Assembly (NCBI RefSeq): GCF_001530125.1
Contig: NZ_LDUG01000008.1
Span: forward strand, 1-64,000
Reading direction: 5' to 3'
DNA from: Thiobacillus denitrificans
GTDB taxonomy: Bacteria; Pseudomonadota; Gammaproteobacteria; Burkholderiales; Thiobacillaceae
DNA length: 64,000 nucleotides
Of the stretch, positions 6,724 through 15,490 are shown in pieces (positions within the stretch are counted from its first letter, which is position 1; each line of letters opens with the position of its first letter). Under the pieces are notes generated by a model. The model saw nothing but the letters and a program-made list of their open reading frames with translations. It was not told where the DNA came from and did no database searches. The translations under genes and the position numbers were made by a program.

Positions 6724-7463
6724 TGCACCCGACTGAACCCCCTTTCCAGCGCATCCAGTTCTACCTGACCGCGCAATACGACTGCAGCTATCTGCCGGGG
6801 CGGCAGGCGCGCTCGCAGGTCGCCACCCCCACCCACCTGATTGATGGCGATGCCTACAGCGCGCTGATCCGCGCCGGATTCCGCCGCAGCGGGCAGTTCA
6901 CCTATCGCCCGCACTGCGAGCAATGCCACGCCTGCGTGCCGGTGCGGGTCGAAGTGGCCGATTTTGTTCCCAACCGCACCCAGCGCCGCTGCTTCAAGCG
7001 CAATCAGCACCTCAGCGCCCGCTTTTTGCCGCTCGATTTCAAGGAAGAACACTACGCGCTGTACCGCAACTATCTCGGCAGCCGCCATGCCGGCGGCGGC
7101 ATGGACCGCGACGGCCCTGACCAGTACACACAGTTCCTGTTGTCGTCCAACGTCGACAGCGTGATGGTCGAATTCCGTGACGGCGACACGCTGATGATGG
7201 TGTCGGTGGTCGACCAGGTCGACGATGGCCTCTCTGCTGTCTACACCTTCTTCGACCCCGAGCGCGACCGTGACAGCCTCGGCGTCTACGGCGTGCTGTG
7301 GCAGATCGAACTGGCAAAACGGCTGGAACTGCCCTATCTCTATCTCGGCTACTGGATCGCTGAAAGCCGCAAGATGGCGTACAAGAAACAGTACCCGCCG
7401 CTGGAAGGGCTGGTCGACGGCCGCTGGCAGCTGATGGAGCCTGCATCGACCGACGGTGCCTGA
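6723..7463 (+). CDS. bpt: Aspartate/glutamate leucyltransferase (Bpt)
   Basis: A 246-residue protein of the arginyl/leucyl-tRNA--protein transferase family. The N-terminal [14 protein letters not shown], the Cys-rich [15 protein letters not shown] and the C-terminal [10 protein letters not shown] with [12 protein letters not shown] are diagnostic. Bpt adds Leu to N-terminal Asp or Glu, creating a destabilising residue. It overlaps the aat stop by one base and completes a two-gene N-end-rule operon. A short hairpin follows the stop. Confidence 0.96.
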
Positions 7464-7475
7464 TGGGTTAGCGCC

Positions 7476-7496
7476 CCGCTTCGATTTTTGAAGCGG
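7476..7496. terminator. Hairpin between convergent bpt and soxXA
   Basis: CCGCTTC-gattttt-GAAGCGG forms a 7-bp perfect stem just after bpt and about 70 bases beyond the soxXA stop on the other strand. There is no long T-run directly after the stem on the plus strand, so termination strength is uncertain. Confidence 0.4.
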
Positions 7497-7566
7497 TTCA
7501 CGATATGACCCAACGCGCGGCAAAAAAATGGCCCGTAGCACGCGAGCCGTCGTGTCACCAAGTTGC

Positions 7567-8850
7567 TCAGTGGCGGATGCCCGGTGCGTTCACTTTCTCT
7601 CCCTGATTGAGGGCTGCCAGGGCGAGTTCAATGTCGCCGTATTCAACAGCATCAGGCGGAAGTTCGTTGGCACGGATGGCGACGTTGCACCATTGGAAAC
7701 GTTTGCGCAAATCCCAGATTTCGCTGCGACTGGTGCGAAAAGTGGGGAAGTGGGCAATCTGTCCCTTGGTTCCGGTCAGCCACTGGCCGCGGACCCACTT
7801 GTTGGCGCCCAGGCTGTGGCAGTCCATGCAGGCAAAGTTGAGTTGCCCGATTTTTCGCGTCATCAAGGCGTTGCCGCGCTTGATCGCGGCGGCCGCGTCC
7901 TTCGACGTGGTATCGACCTTGATCGGGGTGCCGTTGGCGAGGTGTCGCAGATAAATGGACAGGTCGATATTGTCCATGCTTTGCATCAACAGGTTATCCC
8001 TCGTTGTGCTGCGTGCGTGGCGCGTGATGAACTCCTCGACACCGATGACTTTCTTCAGACGCGCTTCATATCGGGGCATGGTGGCGGCCCAGGTCTTGAA
8101 GCTTTTTTCCGGCGCGGCATGGCACGAAGCGCAGGATTTGCCGCGGGCACCGACACGCGAATAAATCAACCGGGCGCGCTCCACTGCAGCCATGCCGTCG
8201 TTCACAAAGGGGTCCAGGTTGTCACGGGTTTCGACTGGAACGGGGCGCGTGGCAGGGTTTTCCAGCTCATCCTTGAACGTGTGGGGTTCCTTAAGGGTTT
8301 TCAGGAACGCCACGATGTCATGGATCTCTTGTACGTTGAAGAGCTTGTGGGTTCCCCAGGGCGGCATCATGGAATTCGGGTTGACCTTGCGCGGGTCGTA
8401 GACATAATCGAACAGCCACTGGTCGGTTCGTCCCCAGGTGCCGACCGTGGACAAGTCGGGGCCGATATTGCCGGGCAGCGCGGGGGTGGTCTTGCCCATG
8501 ATGTGACACGCCACGCAACTGCCGCCTCGCCCCCGATCGTAAGCCAGTTTCTCGCCGTTTTTGGGGTCGCCGGTAATCGGGCCATCCAGTTTCGGCGGCG
8601 GGGCATAGACTGGCGATGCGATATTGGCCAGCGTGTTGTAATCTTTCCAGTCGGTGACAGGCCAACCGCTGTAGCGTGACCAGGGTCTGGCGGACGCCGG
8701 CTGCTCCAGTTCCATCGGCACGGCTGCCGGCGCGGCTTTCTTCTGCTGGGCATCGCTGTCGAGCGGAAACGCGACAAACGCCATCGCCCCGAGCAGGGTG
8801 GATAATGAAAGGCGCGCGGCCTTGGCGGGCGGGAAGGCTGAATTCTCCAT
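7567..8850 (-). CDS. Fused SoxX-SoxA c-type cytochrome
   Basis: A 427-residue exported protein with three haem c motifs. Residues ~95-190 look like SoxX: CVACH at 112-116, then PGNIGPDLSTVG and SMMPPWGTH supplying the likely Met ligand. Residues ~215-420 look like SoxA: CASCH at 240-244, CMDCH at 341-345, and KRFQWCNVAIRANELP with Cys388 at the place of the SoxA active-site/haem-ligand cysteine. SoxAX couples thiosulfate to the SoxY carrier in sulfur oxidation; normally the two subunits are separate genes. AGGAGG just upstream supports the start. No soxYZB genes lie nearby, so it stands alone here. The N-terminal hydrophobic stretch should direct export. Confidence 0.85.
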   Translation of the reverse strand: MENSAFPPAKAARLSLSTLLGAMAFVAFPLDSDAQQKKAAPAAVPMELEQPASARPWSRYSGWPVTDWKDYNTLANIASPVYAPPPKLDGPITGDPKNGEKLAYDRGRGGSCVACHIMGKTTPALPGNIGPDLSTVGTWGRTDQWLFDYVYDPRKVNPNSMMPPWGTHKLFNVQEIHDIVAFLKTLKEPHTFKDELENPATRPVPVETRDNLDPFVNDGMAAVERARLIYSRVGARGKSCASCHAAPEKSFKTWAATMPRYEARLKKVIGVEEFITRHARSTTRDNLLMQSMDNIDLSIYLRHLANGTPIKVDTTSKDAAAAIKRGNALMTRKIGQLNFACMDCHSLGANKWVRGQWLTGTKGQIAHFPTFRTSRSEIWDLRKRFQWCNVAIRANELPPDAVEYGDIELALAALNQGEKVNAPGIRH

Positions 8851-8938
8851 TTGAGATTCCTCCTGGGCGACGATTGAATGCGAATTCGGATAAAACGTGC
8901 CTGCGTGGCAAATCTAAATATAGACAACTTTCCGGAAG

Positions 8939-9811
8939 ATGAACTACCCGAATTCCAATACGAGAGGGTCGCTTCAAGGCGTGTTTCTGACCGCTGTATG
9001 CATGCTGCTTTCAGGCTGCGCCCTGACCGTCAGCCATCCCAGGGCGCTGCATCCGCTTGAAAACTTTGTCCCCCTCCCGGCCGATTCGCGTGTCCAGGTC
9101 GAGCCCGGTTACGAGGCGTATGGCGAGCGCGTGGCGGCGGCGCTGCCGGATGCCATCGCCGCGGTCGAGGCGGCGCATTACCTGCCATTTGCCCATGCGC
9201 CGCGCGTGCATGTGTGCGGCAGCGACGACTGCTTCAGGCGCTATGTGCTGACCCCAAAACTCTCGGCTGCGGTGGTGCCGGACAACCGCCTGATCCTGTC
9301 GCCCAATCTCGACGGCCGCGAAAAGCACCGGCTGTCTGCGCTGCTGACGCACGAACTCGCGCACCTGCATCTGGGCCAGCGCATCGGCCACTATCACAGC
9401 ACCCTGCCGATCTGGTTCCACGAAGGCTGGGCTTCGCTGACAGCCGACGGCGGCGGCGCCGACTACGCGACCGATGCCCAGGCCTACGCGGCCATCCGCG
9501 CCGGCCGCCGGGTCAATCTCGGCGCGCGCGACACCCCCGACAAACGCCACCGCGCGGGCGCATCCCAGCTCAATATCTTCGAGTTCTACCGTCAGTCCAT
9601 GCTGCTGGTCGGCTGGCTGCGTGCGCAGGACGAATCGCGCTTCAAGGCGCTTGTGCTCGCCGTGCAGGACAACACAGACTTTGAAATTGCCTTCTGGAAT
9701 GTTTACGGCCAGGGGCACGCCACCCGGCTCGCGGGGTTTTTCGACGGCGTTCAGAGCGACCCCATATTCAACGATAATCAGACGGTCCAGGCCGCGCCCG
9801 CAAAACCCTAA
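8939..9811 (+). CDS. Putative lipoprotein zinc metallopeptidase
   Basis: A 290-residue protein. LLSGC near residue 27 is a plausible lipobox after a hydrophobic segment, so it is probably membrane-anchored outside the cytoplasm. LLTHELAHLHLGQ carries an HExxH zinc motif, and about 20 residues on, WFHEGWASL supplies the glutamate expected as third ligand in gluzincin-type peptidases. I do not recognise a named family. It is divergent from soxXA and precedes thyA by only 12 bases. Its peptidase activity is inferred from the motif only. Confidence 0.7.
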   Translation: MNYPNSNTRGSLQGVFLTAVCMLLSGCALTVSHPRALHPLENFVPLPADSRVQVEPGYEAYGERVAAALPDAIAAVEAAHYLPFAHAPRVHVCGSDDCFRRYVLTPKLSAAVVPDNRLILSPNLDGREKHRLSALLTHELAHLHLGQRIGHYHSTLPIWFHEGWASLTADGGGADYATDAQAYAAIRAGRRVNLGARDTPDKRHRAGASQLNIFEFYRQSMLLVGWLRAQDESRFKALVLAVQDNTDFEIAFWNVYGQGHATRLAGFFDGVQSDPIFNDNQTVQAAPAKP

Positions 9812-12506: not shown

Positions 12507-13772
12507 TCAGCTCAGTACTTCGGCCCAGATGTTCTTGGCCCAGGACGCGTTGTAGGAAAAGTTGAGTTCGTCGCCCTTGCCGGTGGCGCCGCCTTCGGGC
12601 TGGTTGACGTAGCCTTTGCCAGCCTCGAAGCGGTACACGTTGGCGACATAGCCGGAGGTGGTGCCGGAGGTGGCCGAGTAGCAGGTGTTGGCGACGACCG
12701 GGATGGGGTCGGGCTGACGGCCTGCCAGCAGTTCGACGATGGCGGCGGCGCAGACCTTGGCCATGTTGGTGGCCATGTGCCCGGACTTCGGCAGGCTGGA
12801 CAGCACCGAGTCGCCGATGATGTGGACGTTGGGCACAGTGGTCGACTCGAACGTGGCGAAGTTCACCGTGCACCAGTTGCCGGCGCTGTCGTTGCGTGCG
12901 CCGGCCAGGGCGCAGAGTTCGCCCGCGCGCTGTTTGGGAACGACGTTCAACACGTCGCCCTTGACCGCGTCGAACTCGGTGGTGACGGTCATCGTGCCGC
13001 CGTCCACTGCGAGCGGGGCGTTGTTGGGTCGGTAATCGATCATGCCTGGATAGAAGGTGTTCCAGGCATCCATGAACAGAGCTTTCTTGGAGGCGATGTC
13101 GGGGTTGCCGTCGAGCAGGGTGATCTTGGACCTGGGCTTGGCCTGCTTGAAGTAGTGGGCGACCATGCAGGCGCGCTCGTAGGGGCCGGGCGGGCAGCGG
13201 TAGGGCGCGGTCGGCACCGACATGACGAAGGTGCCGCCGTCGGGCATGGCTTCGAGCTGCTTGCGCAGTTGCGCGGTCTGTGCGCCGGCTTTCCAGGCGT
13301 GGACGACCTTGCCGGCGGCTTCGGCTTCCTTGAAGCCTTTCACCGTGTCGGTGAGGATTTCGATGCCGGGGGCGAGCACCAGGCGGTCGTAGCCGATGCT
13401 GGCACCGCCGCGGGTCTTGATGGTGCGCTTGGCGGGGTCGATGGCGACGACGGTGTCCTTCACCATCTTGATGCCGTGCCTAGGCAGCTTGTCGTAGCCG
13501 TGGGTGATGTCATCCATGCTGCGCAGGCCGCCGATCACCCAGTTGGAAATCGGGCAGGAGACGAACTTGTCGTTCGGCTCGATCAGGGTGACGTCGATGT
13601 TGGGCCCCCACTGGCGCAGGTATTTGGCGCAGGTGGCGCCGCCGAAGCCGGCACCAACCACGACGACGCGGGCACGGGCTGCCGAGGCGCCGGGCTGGGT
13701 GGCGCAGCCGGTGAGCGCTGCCGCTGCACCTGCGCCGGAAATTTTCAGAAAACCGCGACGATTCAGAGTCAT
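12507..13772 (-). CDS. fccB: Flavocytochrome c sulfide dehydrogenase, flavoprotein subunit
   Basis: A 421-residue protein with a twin-arginine signal (NRRGFLKISGAGAAAAL) and an FAD-binding GxGxxG (VVVVGAGFGGATCAKYL). FVSCPISNWVIGG and APYRCPPGPYERACM match the redox-active cysteine regions of the FccB/sulfide:quinone reductase superfamily. The C-terminal part with HIIGDSVLSSLPKSGHMA and NTCYSA fits FccB. It oxidises sulfide in the periplasm and passes electrons to the cytochrome subunit encoded directly upstream (fccA). Confidence 0.93.
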   Translation of the reverse strand: MTLNRRGFLKISGAGAAAALTGCATQPGASAARARVVVVGAGFGGATCAKYLRQWGPNIDVTLIEPNDKFVSCPISNWVIGGLRSMDDITHGYDKLPRHGIKMVKDTVVAIDPAKRTIKTRGGASIGYDRLVLAPGIEILTDTVKGFKEAEAAGKVVHAWKAGAQTAQLRKQLEAMPDGGTFVMSVPTAPYRCPPGPYERACMVAHYFKQAKPRSKITLLDGNPDIASKKALFMDAWNTFYPGMIDYRPNNAPLAVDGGTMTVTTEFDAVKGDVLNVVPKQRAGELCALAGARNDSAGNWCTVNFATFESTTVPNVHIIGDSVLSSLPKSGHMATNMAKVCAAAIVELLAGRQPDPIPVVANTCYSATSGTTSGYVANVYRFEAGKGYVNQPEGGATGKGDELNFSYNASWAKNIWAEVLS

Positions 13773-13794
13773 GTTATCGGTCTCCTAGAGGGGA

Positions 13795-14106
13795 TTACTT
13801 CAGGCTGGCGAAATAGGCAGCCATGGCCTCGATTTCGGCGTCGGTGTAGCCGGCTGCGTGGCGTTTCATGATGGTCGCGGCGCGGGTGCCGGCCTTGAAG
13901 TCCTTCATGGACTTCACGAAGTAATCCTTGTCCAGTCCGGCCAGGCTGGGGATAGTGCCCAGGCTCTTGCCGCCGGGGCCGTGGCAGGACATGCAGGTGG
14001 ATGAGATCGATTTAGTATGGATATCCGCAGCGCCGGCGATGCCGGAAAGCGCGAGGCCGACGAAGCCGGCAAGCGCCAGGGTGGTTTTCTTGTACATAGA
14101 CTCCAT
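13795..14106 (-). CDS. fccA: Cytochrome c subunit of sulfide dehydrogenase (monohaem)
   Basis: A 103-residue exported cytochrome c with one CMSCH haem site and likely Met ligand in AATIMKRHAAGYTDAEIEAMA. Placement 22 bases upstream of fccB identifies it as the electron-accepting subunit. Some FccA proteins have two haems; this one has one. The start may be the ATG at 14106 or the ATG at 14097 (MYKKTT); GGAG precedes the latter by only three bases, so neither is secure. The signal peptide is MYKKTTLALAGFVGLALSG with cleavage near AGA. Confidence 0.88.
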   Translation of the reverse strand: MESMYKKTTLALAGFVGLALSGIAGAADIHTKSISSTCMSCHGPGGKSLGTIPSLAGLDKDYFVKSMKDFKAGTRAATIMKRHAAGYTDAEIEAMAAYFASLK

Positions 14107-14308: not shown

Positions 14309-14968
14309 TTACGAGACATAATGTCGAGCCATTTTCTTGTCTGCGTCCTGCCGGGTGAACGACCATGCGATGCCTCGCTGGTCGGCATTCCTGCGCTGCT
14401 GCCAGGCATCGACCTCGGCAACGAGTACGGCGCGGTTGGGCAAGCGCCGATTCAGGCACTGGCGATCCAGAATGCCGATTTCGATTTCCGCCATGTTGAG
14501 CCAACTGGCGTGTTTCGGGGTGTAGTGAAAGACGACCCGGCGCAGAAGTGCTTGCGCCTCCTTGACGCCGAGCACTTCCTCGAAGCACTTGCGGAAATGG
14601 GTATTGAGGTTGTCCATGACCAGATGGACGCGACGCGCCGTGGCATAGACCTGTTCGAGCAGATACCGGACGAAGGCCACGAAGTCGGGCTTGGCGCGGC
14701 GGTCGGTAACCAAGACCGTTCGCCGCCCGCCCTTGGACTCCACTGCCACGAACAGATTGCAGGTGCCGGCGCGCACATATTCGTAATCTTGCCGGACAGG
14801 GGTTCCCGGATGGATCGGCAAAGGCGCGCGGGAGTCCCCAAGCAGTTGTTTGCTTTTCTCGTCCAGGCAAACGACAGGCTCTCCCGGCCTGAACGGACGG
14901 GCATAGAGATCGAGCAGATCGTACATCCGTTGCCGATATTCCTTCGTCATTCTGCCGATGCACCACAT
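14309..14968 (-). CDS. IS630 transposase, catalytic part (orfB)
   Basis: A 219-residue frame carrying the DDE domain: VVCLDEKSKQLLG (first Asp), HLVMDNLNTHFRK (second Asp) and SWLNMAEIEIGILDRQ (Glu). In the same frame upstream of its first ATG lies KPWRKLMWC, which shows that the natural protein starts in orfA and reaches this frame by a -1 shift on an A8 run at about 14991-14998. All three catalytic residues are present, so the element may be active. Confidence 0.88.
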   Translation of the reverse strand: MWCIGRMTKEYRQRMYDLLDLYARPFRPGEPVVCLDEKSKQLLGDSRAPLPIHPGTPVRQDYEYVRAGTCNLFVAVESKGGRRTVLVTDRRAKPDFVAFVRYLLEQVYATARRVHLVMDNLNTHFRKCFEEVLGVKEAQALLRRVVFHYTPKHASWLNMAEIEIGILDRQCLNRRLPNRAVLVAEVDAWQQRRNADQRGIAWSFTRQDADKKMARHYVS

Positions 14969-15411
14969 CAGTTTGCGCCACGGCTTGAGGCAGTTTTTTT
15001 TAGCAGCCGACGGACGGTTTCGCGGCTGATCGAGTCAATCCCCGGCTGTGCTCGCGCGGCTTGCTCCAGCAATGCAATCGTCCAGCGCCGGGCACCCGCT
15101 GGAGGCGTCGAGCAAGCCAGGGCGGAGATTTGCGCTTCGACATCGGTGTCGTACTGCCGGGGCTTGCCCGGGCGCGCAGCATCGCGCAGTGCGTATTCCG
15201 CACCGCCCTCCAAGTATGCGGATCGCGTCCGCCAGACAAGCATCCGCCCAACGCCGAGAACCGCCATGATCTGGGCCTCCGGAATGCCGCGATCAAGCGC
15301 GGAAAGAACATGCGCCCGATTGACCTCTCGTGCGTGGTGCAAACCCTTGGTCCGGTACGACTCAATCAACTCGCGTTCCTCATCGGTAAGATGCAATTCG
15401 GTCTGTCGCAT
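14968..15411 (-). CDS. IS630 transposase, N-terminal helix-turn-helix part (orfA)
   Basis: A 147-residue frame (MRQTELHLTDEERELIESY...) with helix-turn-helix regions typical of IS630 transposase N-termini (REVNRAHVLSALDRGI, QIMAVLGVGRMLVWR). It ends soon after CTAAAAAAAAC, where a -1 slip leads into orfB. An upstream in-frame ATG at 15456 would add 15 residues; the later ATG is preferred by family length. Confidence 0.8.
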   Translation of the reverse strand: MRQTELHLTDEERELIESYRTKGLHHAREVNRAHVLSALDRGIPEAQIMAVLGVGRMLVWRTRSAYLEGGAEYALRDAARPGKPRQYDTDVEAQISALACSTPPAGARRWTIALLEQAARAQPGIDSISRETVRRLLKKTASSRGAN

Positions 15412-15490
15412 GGCCAACTCCTCAGCTCTGGATGGATATGCAACAGCATAATACATGTATCGTTATTTATGTGTTCTTATACTAGACTAT

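Follow-up and report, generated by a model that had tools for sequence, protein, structure and literature searches.

A single-chain SoxX–SoxA cytochrome in Thiobacillus denitrificans, predicted to be a second SoxAX with a bis-histidine haem 1

Fusion of the SoxX and SoxA cytochromes is already on record from Halorhodospira, which has a fused triheme SoxXA (PMC8877833), the only explicit statement of such a fusion that we met in the literature searched. In Beggiatoa leptomitoformis, soxAX is given as one accession (AUI69545.1), with transcripts about 15-fold up on internal sulfur and a SoxAX protein that was detected, its change not being significant (PMC11507549), and Ca. Venteria carries two SoxAX genes in scaffolds with soxY and soxZ (PMC5728499). 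The SoxAX heterodimer has proved refractory to mechanistic study (PMC4423706), and a version made as a single chain may be easier to handle in enzymology. Here we describe a fused soxXA gene of Thiobacillus denitrificans and interpret its product, with a probability of about 0.7, as a single-chain SoxAX that serves as a second isozyme, loading thiosulfate on SoxYZ in trans, and that has a predicted bis-His haem 1.

The window (the whole 64 kb stretch of DNA analysed) corresponds to contig C78 in a draft genome of 3.29 Mb and 86 contigs. The fused gene occupies 7567..8850 on the minus strand, as do all features of it given below, and is one open frame from the ATG at 8850 that encodes 427 amino acids with three haem-binding motifs. 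A ribosome-binding box, AGGAGG (8859..8864), can be read in the sequence before this ATG, and a terminator-like hairpin with a T run (7530..7548) lies about 19 nt 3′ of the stop codon; this hit of a consensus scan is weak alone, and the four terminator-like sites in 7400-9100, against 2.2 ± 1.4 in shuffles, are likewise weak evidence. From its N-terminus, the protein comprises a signal peptide region of about residues 1-35 (8746..8850; placed by hydropathy, with the top window starting at residue 14, rather than by a cleavage-site tool), a SoxX domain at residues 110-187 (8290..8523), a linker at residues 188-211 (8218..8289) and a SoxA domain at residues 212-427 (7570..8217). Within the SoxX domain lie the haem motif CVACH (residues 112-116, 8503-8517) and Met162 (8365-8367), the presumed distal ligand of the SoxX haem, which is present in 51/51 fused rows of our alignment and in 58/58 other SoxX rows, the latter including duplicates and three copies of a fused fragment. 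The SoxA domain has the haem 1 motif CASCH (residues 240-244, 8119..8133), His278 (8017..8019) at the column of the Cys presumed to be the distal ligand of haem 1, the motif CMDCH of the catalytic haem 2 (residues 341-345, 7816..7830) and Cys388 (7687..7689), the presumed catalytic Cys ligand of haem 2, with Arg384 and Arg372 nearby. Beyond the three CXXCH motifs, which start at 112, 240 and 341, Cys388 is the one further cysteine of the chain.

Both domain assignments exceed the curated NCBIfam cut-offs: SoxX (TIGR04485) scores 82.6 bits against a cut-off of 61 over residues 109-186, and SoxA (TIGR04484) scores 144.7 bits against 110 over residues 220-426. Pfam agrees in finding a SoxA/TsdA domain, and phmmer matches solved structures of SoxA chains at residues 208-427 and of SoxX chains at about 86-185. 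An N-terminal half derived from an unrelated cytochrome, one outcome that the first-pass annotation had named as fatal to its own assignment, can be set aside: the profile of one such candidate, CcoO, reaches 24.7 bits where 200.65 are required, whereas the SoxX profile clears its threshold. The gene at 7567-8850 encodes a single protein that joins SoxX to a dihaem SoxA, just as that annotation had read it (one three-haem chain with Cys388); its contrast with the normally separate subunits was too strong given that a SoxXA fusion is already in print (PMC8877833). No hydrophobic stretch was found between the halves: among 15-residue windows starting at 185-205 the highest hydropathy is −0.55, whereas the N-terminal signal peptide reaches +1.97. 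The signal peptide of a free SoxA is therefore missing, and in place of the two separate subunits of SoxAX there is one chain without an internal signal peptide, that is, a fused variant. An AF2 model from 37 aligned relatives (mean pLDDT 82, pTM 0.80) aligns with Rhodovulum sulfidophilum SoxA 1h31_A over residues 204-427 (Z 23.7, rmsd 2.1, 220 aligned) and with SoxX 1h32_B over residues 83-187 (Z 12.4, rmsd 2.3, 101 aligned), the catalytic loop being poorly predicted (pLDDT below 50 at residues 389-391). The best non-SoxAX matches among 351 chains aligned were Kustd1711 for the SoxX half (Z 11.2) and TsdA for the SoxA half (Z 11.1).

A scan of genome contigs with six peptide patterns of the query, which is not exhaustive, found relatives at 50 loci, with both halves in one frame in 49 of 50 and the exception, L082, a fragment at a contig end. 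The first-pass annotation had also allowed that a sequencing error joined two genes, and apart from the fact that the genome is a draft of 86 contigs we found no evidence for such a sequencing or assembly error; 49 joined frames in other records, linker residues Pro199 and Arg202 that are invariant (51/51 fused rows) and the missing internal signal peptide refute it, and we regard it as practically excluded. The nearest named relatives are Thiobacillus metagenome bins. Hosts include, among others, Thiobacillus and other betaproteobacterial bins (bin titles can be wrong) and, by record titles, the alphaproteobacteria Enhydrobacter, Reyranella and Bradyrhizobium, the Thiotrichaceae Thiomargarita, Thioploca and Parabeggiatoa, and a few more. 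The fused frame of one such record (L079, Bradyrhizobium tropiciagri) shows two CXXCH motifs only: either the haem motif of SoxX has been lost or changed, or the frame was called too short. Within the genus the gene was found in 9/56 genomes (E ≤ 1e-40; one copy cut by a contig end), four further matches being unfused SoxA. Sampling more broadly, with up to four candidates scored per genome, such that distant members may be missed, a full-length match was found in the own genome alone of 398 across the phylum (E ≤ 1e-30), and across the class seven of 369 genomes, counting the own one, gave a full-length fused match with no stop (four with His and three with Cys at residue 278, see below); an eighth (G722) has a stop between the halves. 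Fused proteins of this kind are spread widely, yet few genomes have one.

Across the full 64 kb of the window, no SoxY, SoxZ or SoxB profile gave a hit at E ≤ 1e-8, as had been noted from the sequence at first pass. The companion claim of a locus without other sox genes is right for the window and wrong for the genome, since the search which that annotation proposed recovers soxX, soxY, soxZ, soxA and soxB on contig C9, in one direction and all over cut-off; SoxC was not found in the own genome. SoxYZ and SoxB are thus encoded in the same genome as the fusion although not beside it, and, because the genome has its own Sox cluster, the fused gene represents a second SoxAX. The canonical SoxA of contig C9 is monohaem and about 26% identical to the SoxA half of the fusion. 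Elsewhere in the genome there is a further SoxA/TsdA-type cytochrome (L003, G000:C13:47930-48169; 66.4 bits against the SoxA cut-off of 110), possibly a thiosulfate dehydrogenase. The nine fused-bearing genomes of the genus all have SoxB over cut-off and a separate SoxA-type frame, and eight of them have SoxY, over cut-off in seven. For the ninth (G675), in which SoxY was not found, we rejected loss of SoxYZ: on contig C2 its matches to soxA and soxB start as early as bases 455 and 1223, which implies that the sox cluster is cut by the contig end.

Neighbouring genes point to the same partners. Using neighbour profiles built from gene clusters, of which one member each was confirmed as SoxY, SoxZ or SoxB, we find at least one of these genes within 6 kb of the fused gene at 34 of the 51 loci covered (the window and 50 others): soxY in 32, soxZ in 31, soxB in 30 and all three in 27. 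The figure of 34 is a lower bound, as several of the 17 loci without sox neighbours, among which the unscorable fragment L082 is counted, have short flanks. At the 50 loci whose fused frame is complete, the stretches covered around it showed neither another soxA nor another soxX. In the Thiobacillus-type loci (L035-L043 and the window) none of soxY, soxZ and soxB lies within 6 kb (10/10, several of the contigs being short), and we therefore infer the SoxYZ partnership there rather than read it from gene order. The suggestion made at first pass of another sulfane-transfer role found no positive evidence and sits poorly with the 34 loci above; for annotation, an 'orphan' fused SoxXA in Thiobacillus need not signal a new pathway.

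About 3.6 kb from the fused gene, the window encodes an FAD flavoprotein (421 amino acids) and a one-haem cytochrome c (103 amino acids) in tandem (12507-14106, minus), a pair which we take to resemble a sulfide dehydrogenase pair. Between this cytochrome and a ferrochelatase-like gene are two adjoining frames (14309-15456, minus), presumably a split IS630-type transposase. It is conceivable that the fused protein is a cytochrome for the flavoprotein/cytochrome pair, acting in sulfide-derived sulfane chemistry and not in thiosulfate loading, and the same flavoprotein does occur within 5 kb in 8 of 51 loci (L035, L036, L038, L039, the window, L045, L059 and L060). However, genes of opposite orientation lie in between, the residues for thiosulfate catalysis are conserved in the fused protein, and the flavoprotein's own function is unsure, as all its NCBIfam hits, the best being type III sulfide:quinone reductase, are below cut-off; we consider this role very improbable.

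The haem 1 site sets most fused proteins apart from their unfused relatives. At the column of residue 278, our first alignment has His in 51/51 fused rows (14 duplicate or partial frames, including the stop-broken L013, being skipped) and Cys in 55/55 unfused rows. Over all rows the fused proteins have 55 His and 3 Cys (n=58), and the unfused, picked for resemblance to SoxA or the fused family rather than at random, have 98 Cys, 2 Ser and 1 His (n=101). A wider set splits the same column into 54 His and 3 Cys in fused proteins, 32 Cys, 2 Ser and 1 His in unfused dihaem SoxA (n=35), Cys in 66/66 unfused monohaem SoxA and Cys in 3/3 solved SoxA chains. This set leaves out two partial frames (of L151 and L135) and L041, which is not a duplicate of L092, is also absent from both SoxA trees and the SoxX tree, and is counted in the signature tally, whence 55 His rows there and 54 here. 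From a residue comparison that also covered the class sample, L152-L157 were omitted; starting at the first haem motif, each of them repeats the sequence of a row that was included.

We take the Cys at this column to be the distal ligand of haem 1, from structure work on R. sulfidophilum 1h31; the window protein has His278 in its stead. Haem 1 is missing in 66/101 unfused SoxA rows, in which Cys240 and His244 of the motif are gone and Cys243 and Cys278 are kept, a pattern that fits a disulfide and so places residue 278 beside the haem 1 site. Taken together with the ligand role assumed for Cys, this position argues for a bis-His haem 1 in the clade, with His278 as its predicted ligand. His/Cys haems at SoxAX active sites have potentials of −400 mV or lower, and replacing the Cys at such a site by Ala may raise the potential by more than 500 mV (PMC6879331). 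By extension, His at haem 1 would raise the potential of that haem. We found no mention of a His ligand in SoxA in the literature searched, a body that leaves aside the main reviews and structure papers. Neither of two simpler rules for His278 survives: it does not mark fusion itself, as three fused rows (L163, L164 and L165) keep Cys and fall elsewhere in the tree, nor is it unique to fused proteins, as an unfused dihaem SoxA (L147) also has His. Among unfused dihaem SoxA the presumed ligand itself varies, 3 of 35 rows being without Cys (L147 with His, L133 and L146 with Ser).

Further marks of the His clade are Trp387, Val390 and Thr373, and 53 His-type rows combine Thr373 with Val390, a pair that no unfused row and no Cys-type fused row has. 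The soxAX primers of B. leptomitoformis (PMC11507549) translate to FPTYRT and CGVAIR and carry this pair, and Beggiatoa soxAX is therefore most likely a member of the His clade; a fused family member is thus most likely expressed.

Phylogenies of the two halves, which the first-pass annotation had called for, each unite the fused proteins. In the smaller SoxA tree their SoxA halves form one group (50 rows, SH-aLRT 100), and their SoxX halves do the same in a tree with few columns (134; 51 rows, support 92), which omits six more duplicates or fragments and counts L093, a cut fused fragment, as fused. Four unfused SoxA of the genus adjoin the fused clade in the smaller tree (support 86), but the wider tree does not settle on a neighbour, and we name no firm sister group. 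In three of these four (L094, L096 and L097) soxX directly precedes soxA, so an additional soxX-soxA pair, not fused, is present in some members of the genus; L095 is SoxA alone. The wider tree keeps the 54 His-type fused rows as one group (99) with the three Cys-type fused rows elsewhere, indicating at least two origins for the fusion of SoxX and SoxA, unless losses were numerous; L163, L164 and L165 are likely fusion events independent of the His clade.

Presence in 9 of 56 genomes of the genus indicates that the gene is dispensable, and it might be a leftover of an imported or split soxYZ-XA-B cluster, redundant beside the canonical cluster and heading for loss. Nine Thiobacillus-type rows group (86) in the SoxA tree with four rows that lie in sox operons, and one genome (G017:C187, L013) has a fragment, interrupted by an in-frame stop, that shares 76% identity with the SoxA end and is either a decayed copy or an assembly fault. 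Against such decay, the window copy has intact catalytic and haem residues, its own ribosome-binding box and terminator-like site, and dN/dS values of 0.058, 0.106, 0.163 and 0.201 relative to L035, L036, L037 and L038 (415-426 codons). The control Ate gene gives 0.034, 0.059, 0.075 and 0.085 for the same four, all of these values being rough because dS exceeds 0.7 throughout; the fused gene is under purifying selection, with constraint somewhat looser than on Ate. Its setting has been kept as well, in that Ate/Aat neighbours are common to six loci (L035-L039 and the window), the fused proteins of the other five being 74-88% identical to that of the window. On balance we think it improbable that the gene is such a leftover, and favour a working second isozyme of SoxAX.

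At the catalytic site Cys341, Cys344 and His345 of the haem 2 motif, Cys388, Arg384 and Arg372 are present in 51/51 fused rows. For the Arg/Cys comparison that follows, we assumed the precursor number for the cysteine of R. sulfidophilum SoxA. The spacing of Arg384 and Cys388 equals that of Arg119 and Cys123 in TsdA (TsdA numbering), and Arg372 is the counterpart of Arg232 of R. sulfidophilum, which is invariant in SoxA (PMC4423706). Residues flanking Cys388 (Trp387 and Val390) are unlike those of canonical SoxA, a difference that could reflect another partner. A rival reading is a carrier-independent, TsdA-like thiosulfate dehydrogenase, which would turn two thiosulfates into tetrathionate, with the fused cytochrome accepting the electrons and no need of SoxYZ. 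SoxA and TsdA have a common catalytic domain and cytochrome partner, but where TsdA has an invariant Ser, four residues past the Cys (PMC4423706), the window protein has Ile392, and across 55 His-type rows the position has Val in 35, Ile in 18, Ala in 1 and Leu in 1. TsdA is fused to its own electron acceptor in Marichromatium (PMC6879331) and TsdA structures match residues 210-313 of our model (Z about 11), yet TsdA has the SoxA-like domain first and cytochrome c second, whereas the SoxX-type domain here is N-terminal. That the gene stands alone in the Thiobacillus-type loci fits an enzyme of this kind; the SoxA model over its cut-off and the sox genes near 34 of 51 loci do not, and we judge it unlikely.

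We thus return to a SoxAX isozyme acting in trans, for which the following scheme is plausible. The three-haem single-chain cytochrome would be exported to the periplasm, where the SoxA half would conjugate thiosulfate to Cys388 on haem 2 and hand it to the SoxY cysteine, with a soluble cytochrome receiving the electrons by way of the tethered SoxX haem (His116/Met162). SoxB and the SoxYZ carrier would be supplied by the soxXYZAB cluster on the other contig, making the fused enzyme a second SoxAX isozyme, and fusion would fix a 1:1 pairing of SoxX and SoxA. The change of Cys to His at residue 278 may yield a bis-histidine haem 1 of higher potential, and with it a third usable redox centre. More tentatively, the His clade could be a distinct SoxAX class in which haem 1, kept at very low potential by cysteine in ordinary dihaem SoxA, is a redox-active bis-histidine haem and the two electrons of conjugation are taken up by haem 1 and SoxX, the Thiobacillus copy having left its operon to become a stand-alone isozyme for times when the monohaem SoxAX is insufficient; we regard this as possible but rather doubtful. 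Haem 1 of SoxA is a puzzle in that many SoxA are without it and are still thought to work, and a family that keeps haem 1 with its presumed ligand changed offers a direct test of haem 1 in catalysis.

Among known systems, the SoxXA of Halorhodospira (PMC8877833) resembles the window's in joining a dihaem SoxA and SoxX in one triheme chain of a thiosulfate user; it was compared by description, and three Cys-type fused proteins in our own set lie elsewhere in the tree. The soxAX of B. leptomitoformis, compared via its primers, is likewise one SoxAX accession and has the clade signature; it works with soxB, soxY and soxZ of the same genome (PMC11507549). SoxYZ fusion carriers (PMC11237559) are also fused Sox subunits, but as carriers and not cytochromes they represent an unrelated event. 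TsdA and TsdBA have a related catalytic haem domain and fusion to an electron-accepting cytochrome, and differ in domain order and in the invariant Ser that is missing here. The SoxA and SoxX of contig C9 have the same domains and the same catalytic Cys as the fusion, but with one haem in SoxA and on separate chains. R. sulfidophilum SoxAX (1h31/1h32) and Paracoccus SoxXA (2c1d) match the window protein in folds, catalytic Cys/Arg and the two CXXCH motifs of SoxA, whereas they consist of two chains, have Cys at the His278 column and are 24-31% identical to it. Given that a SoxXA fusion is already in print, what is new here and open to test is that His stands at the haem 1 site throughout the clade.
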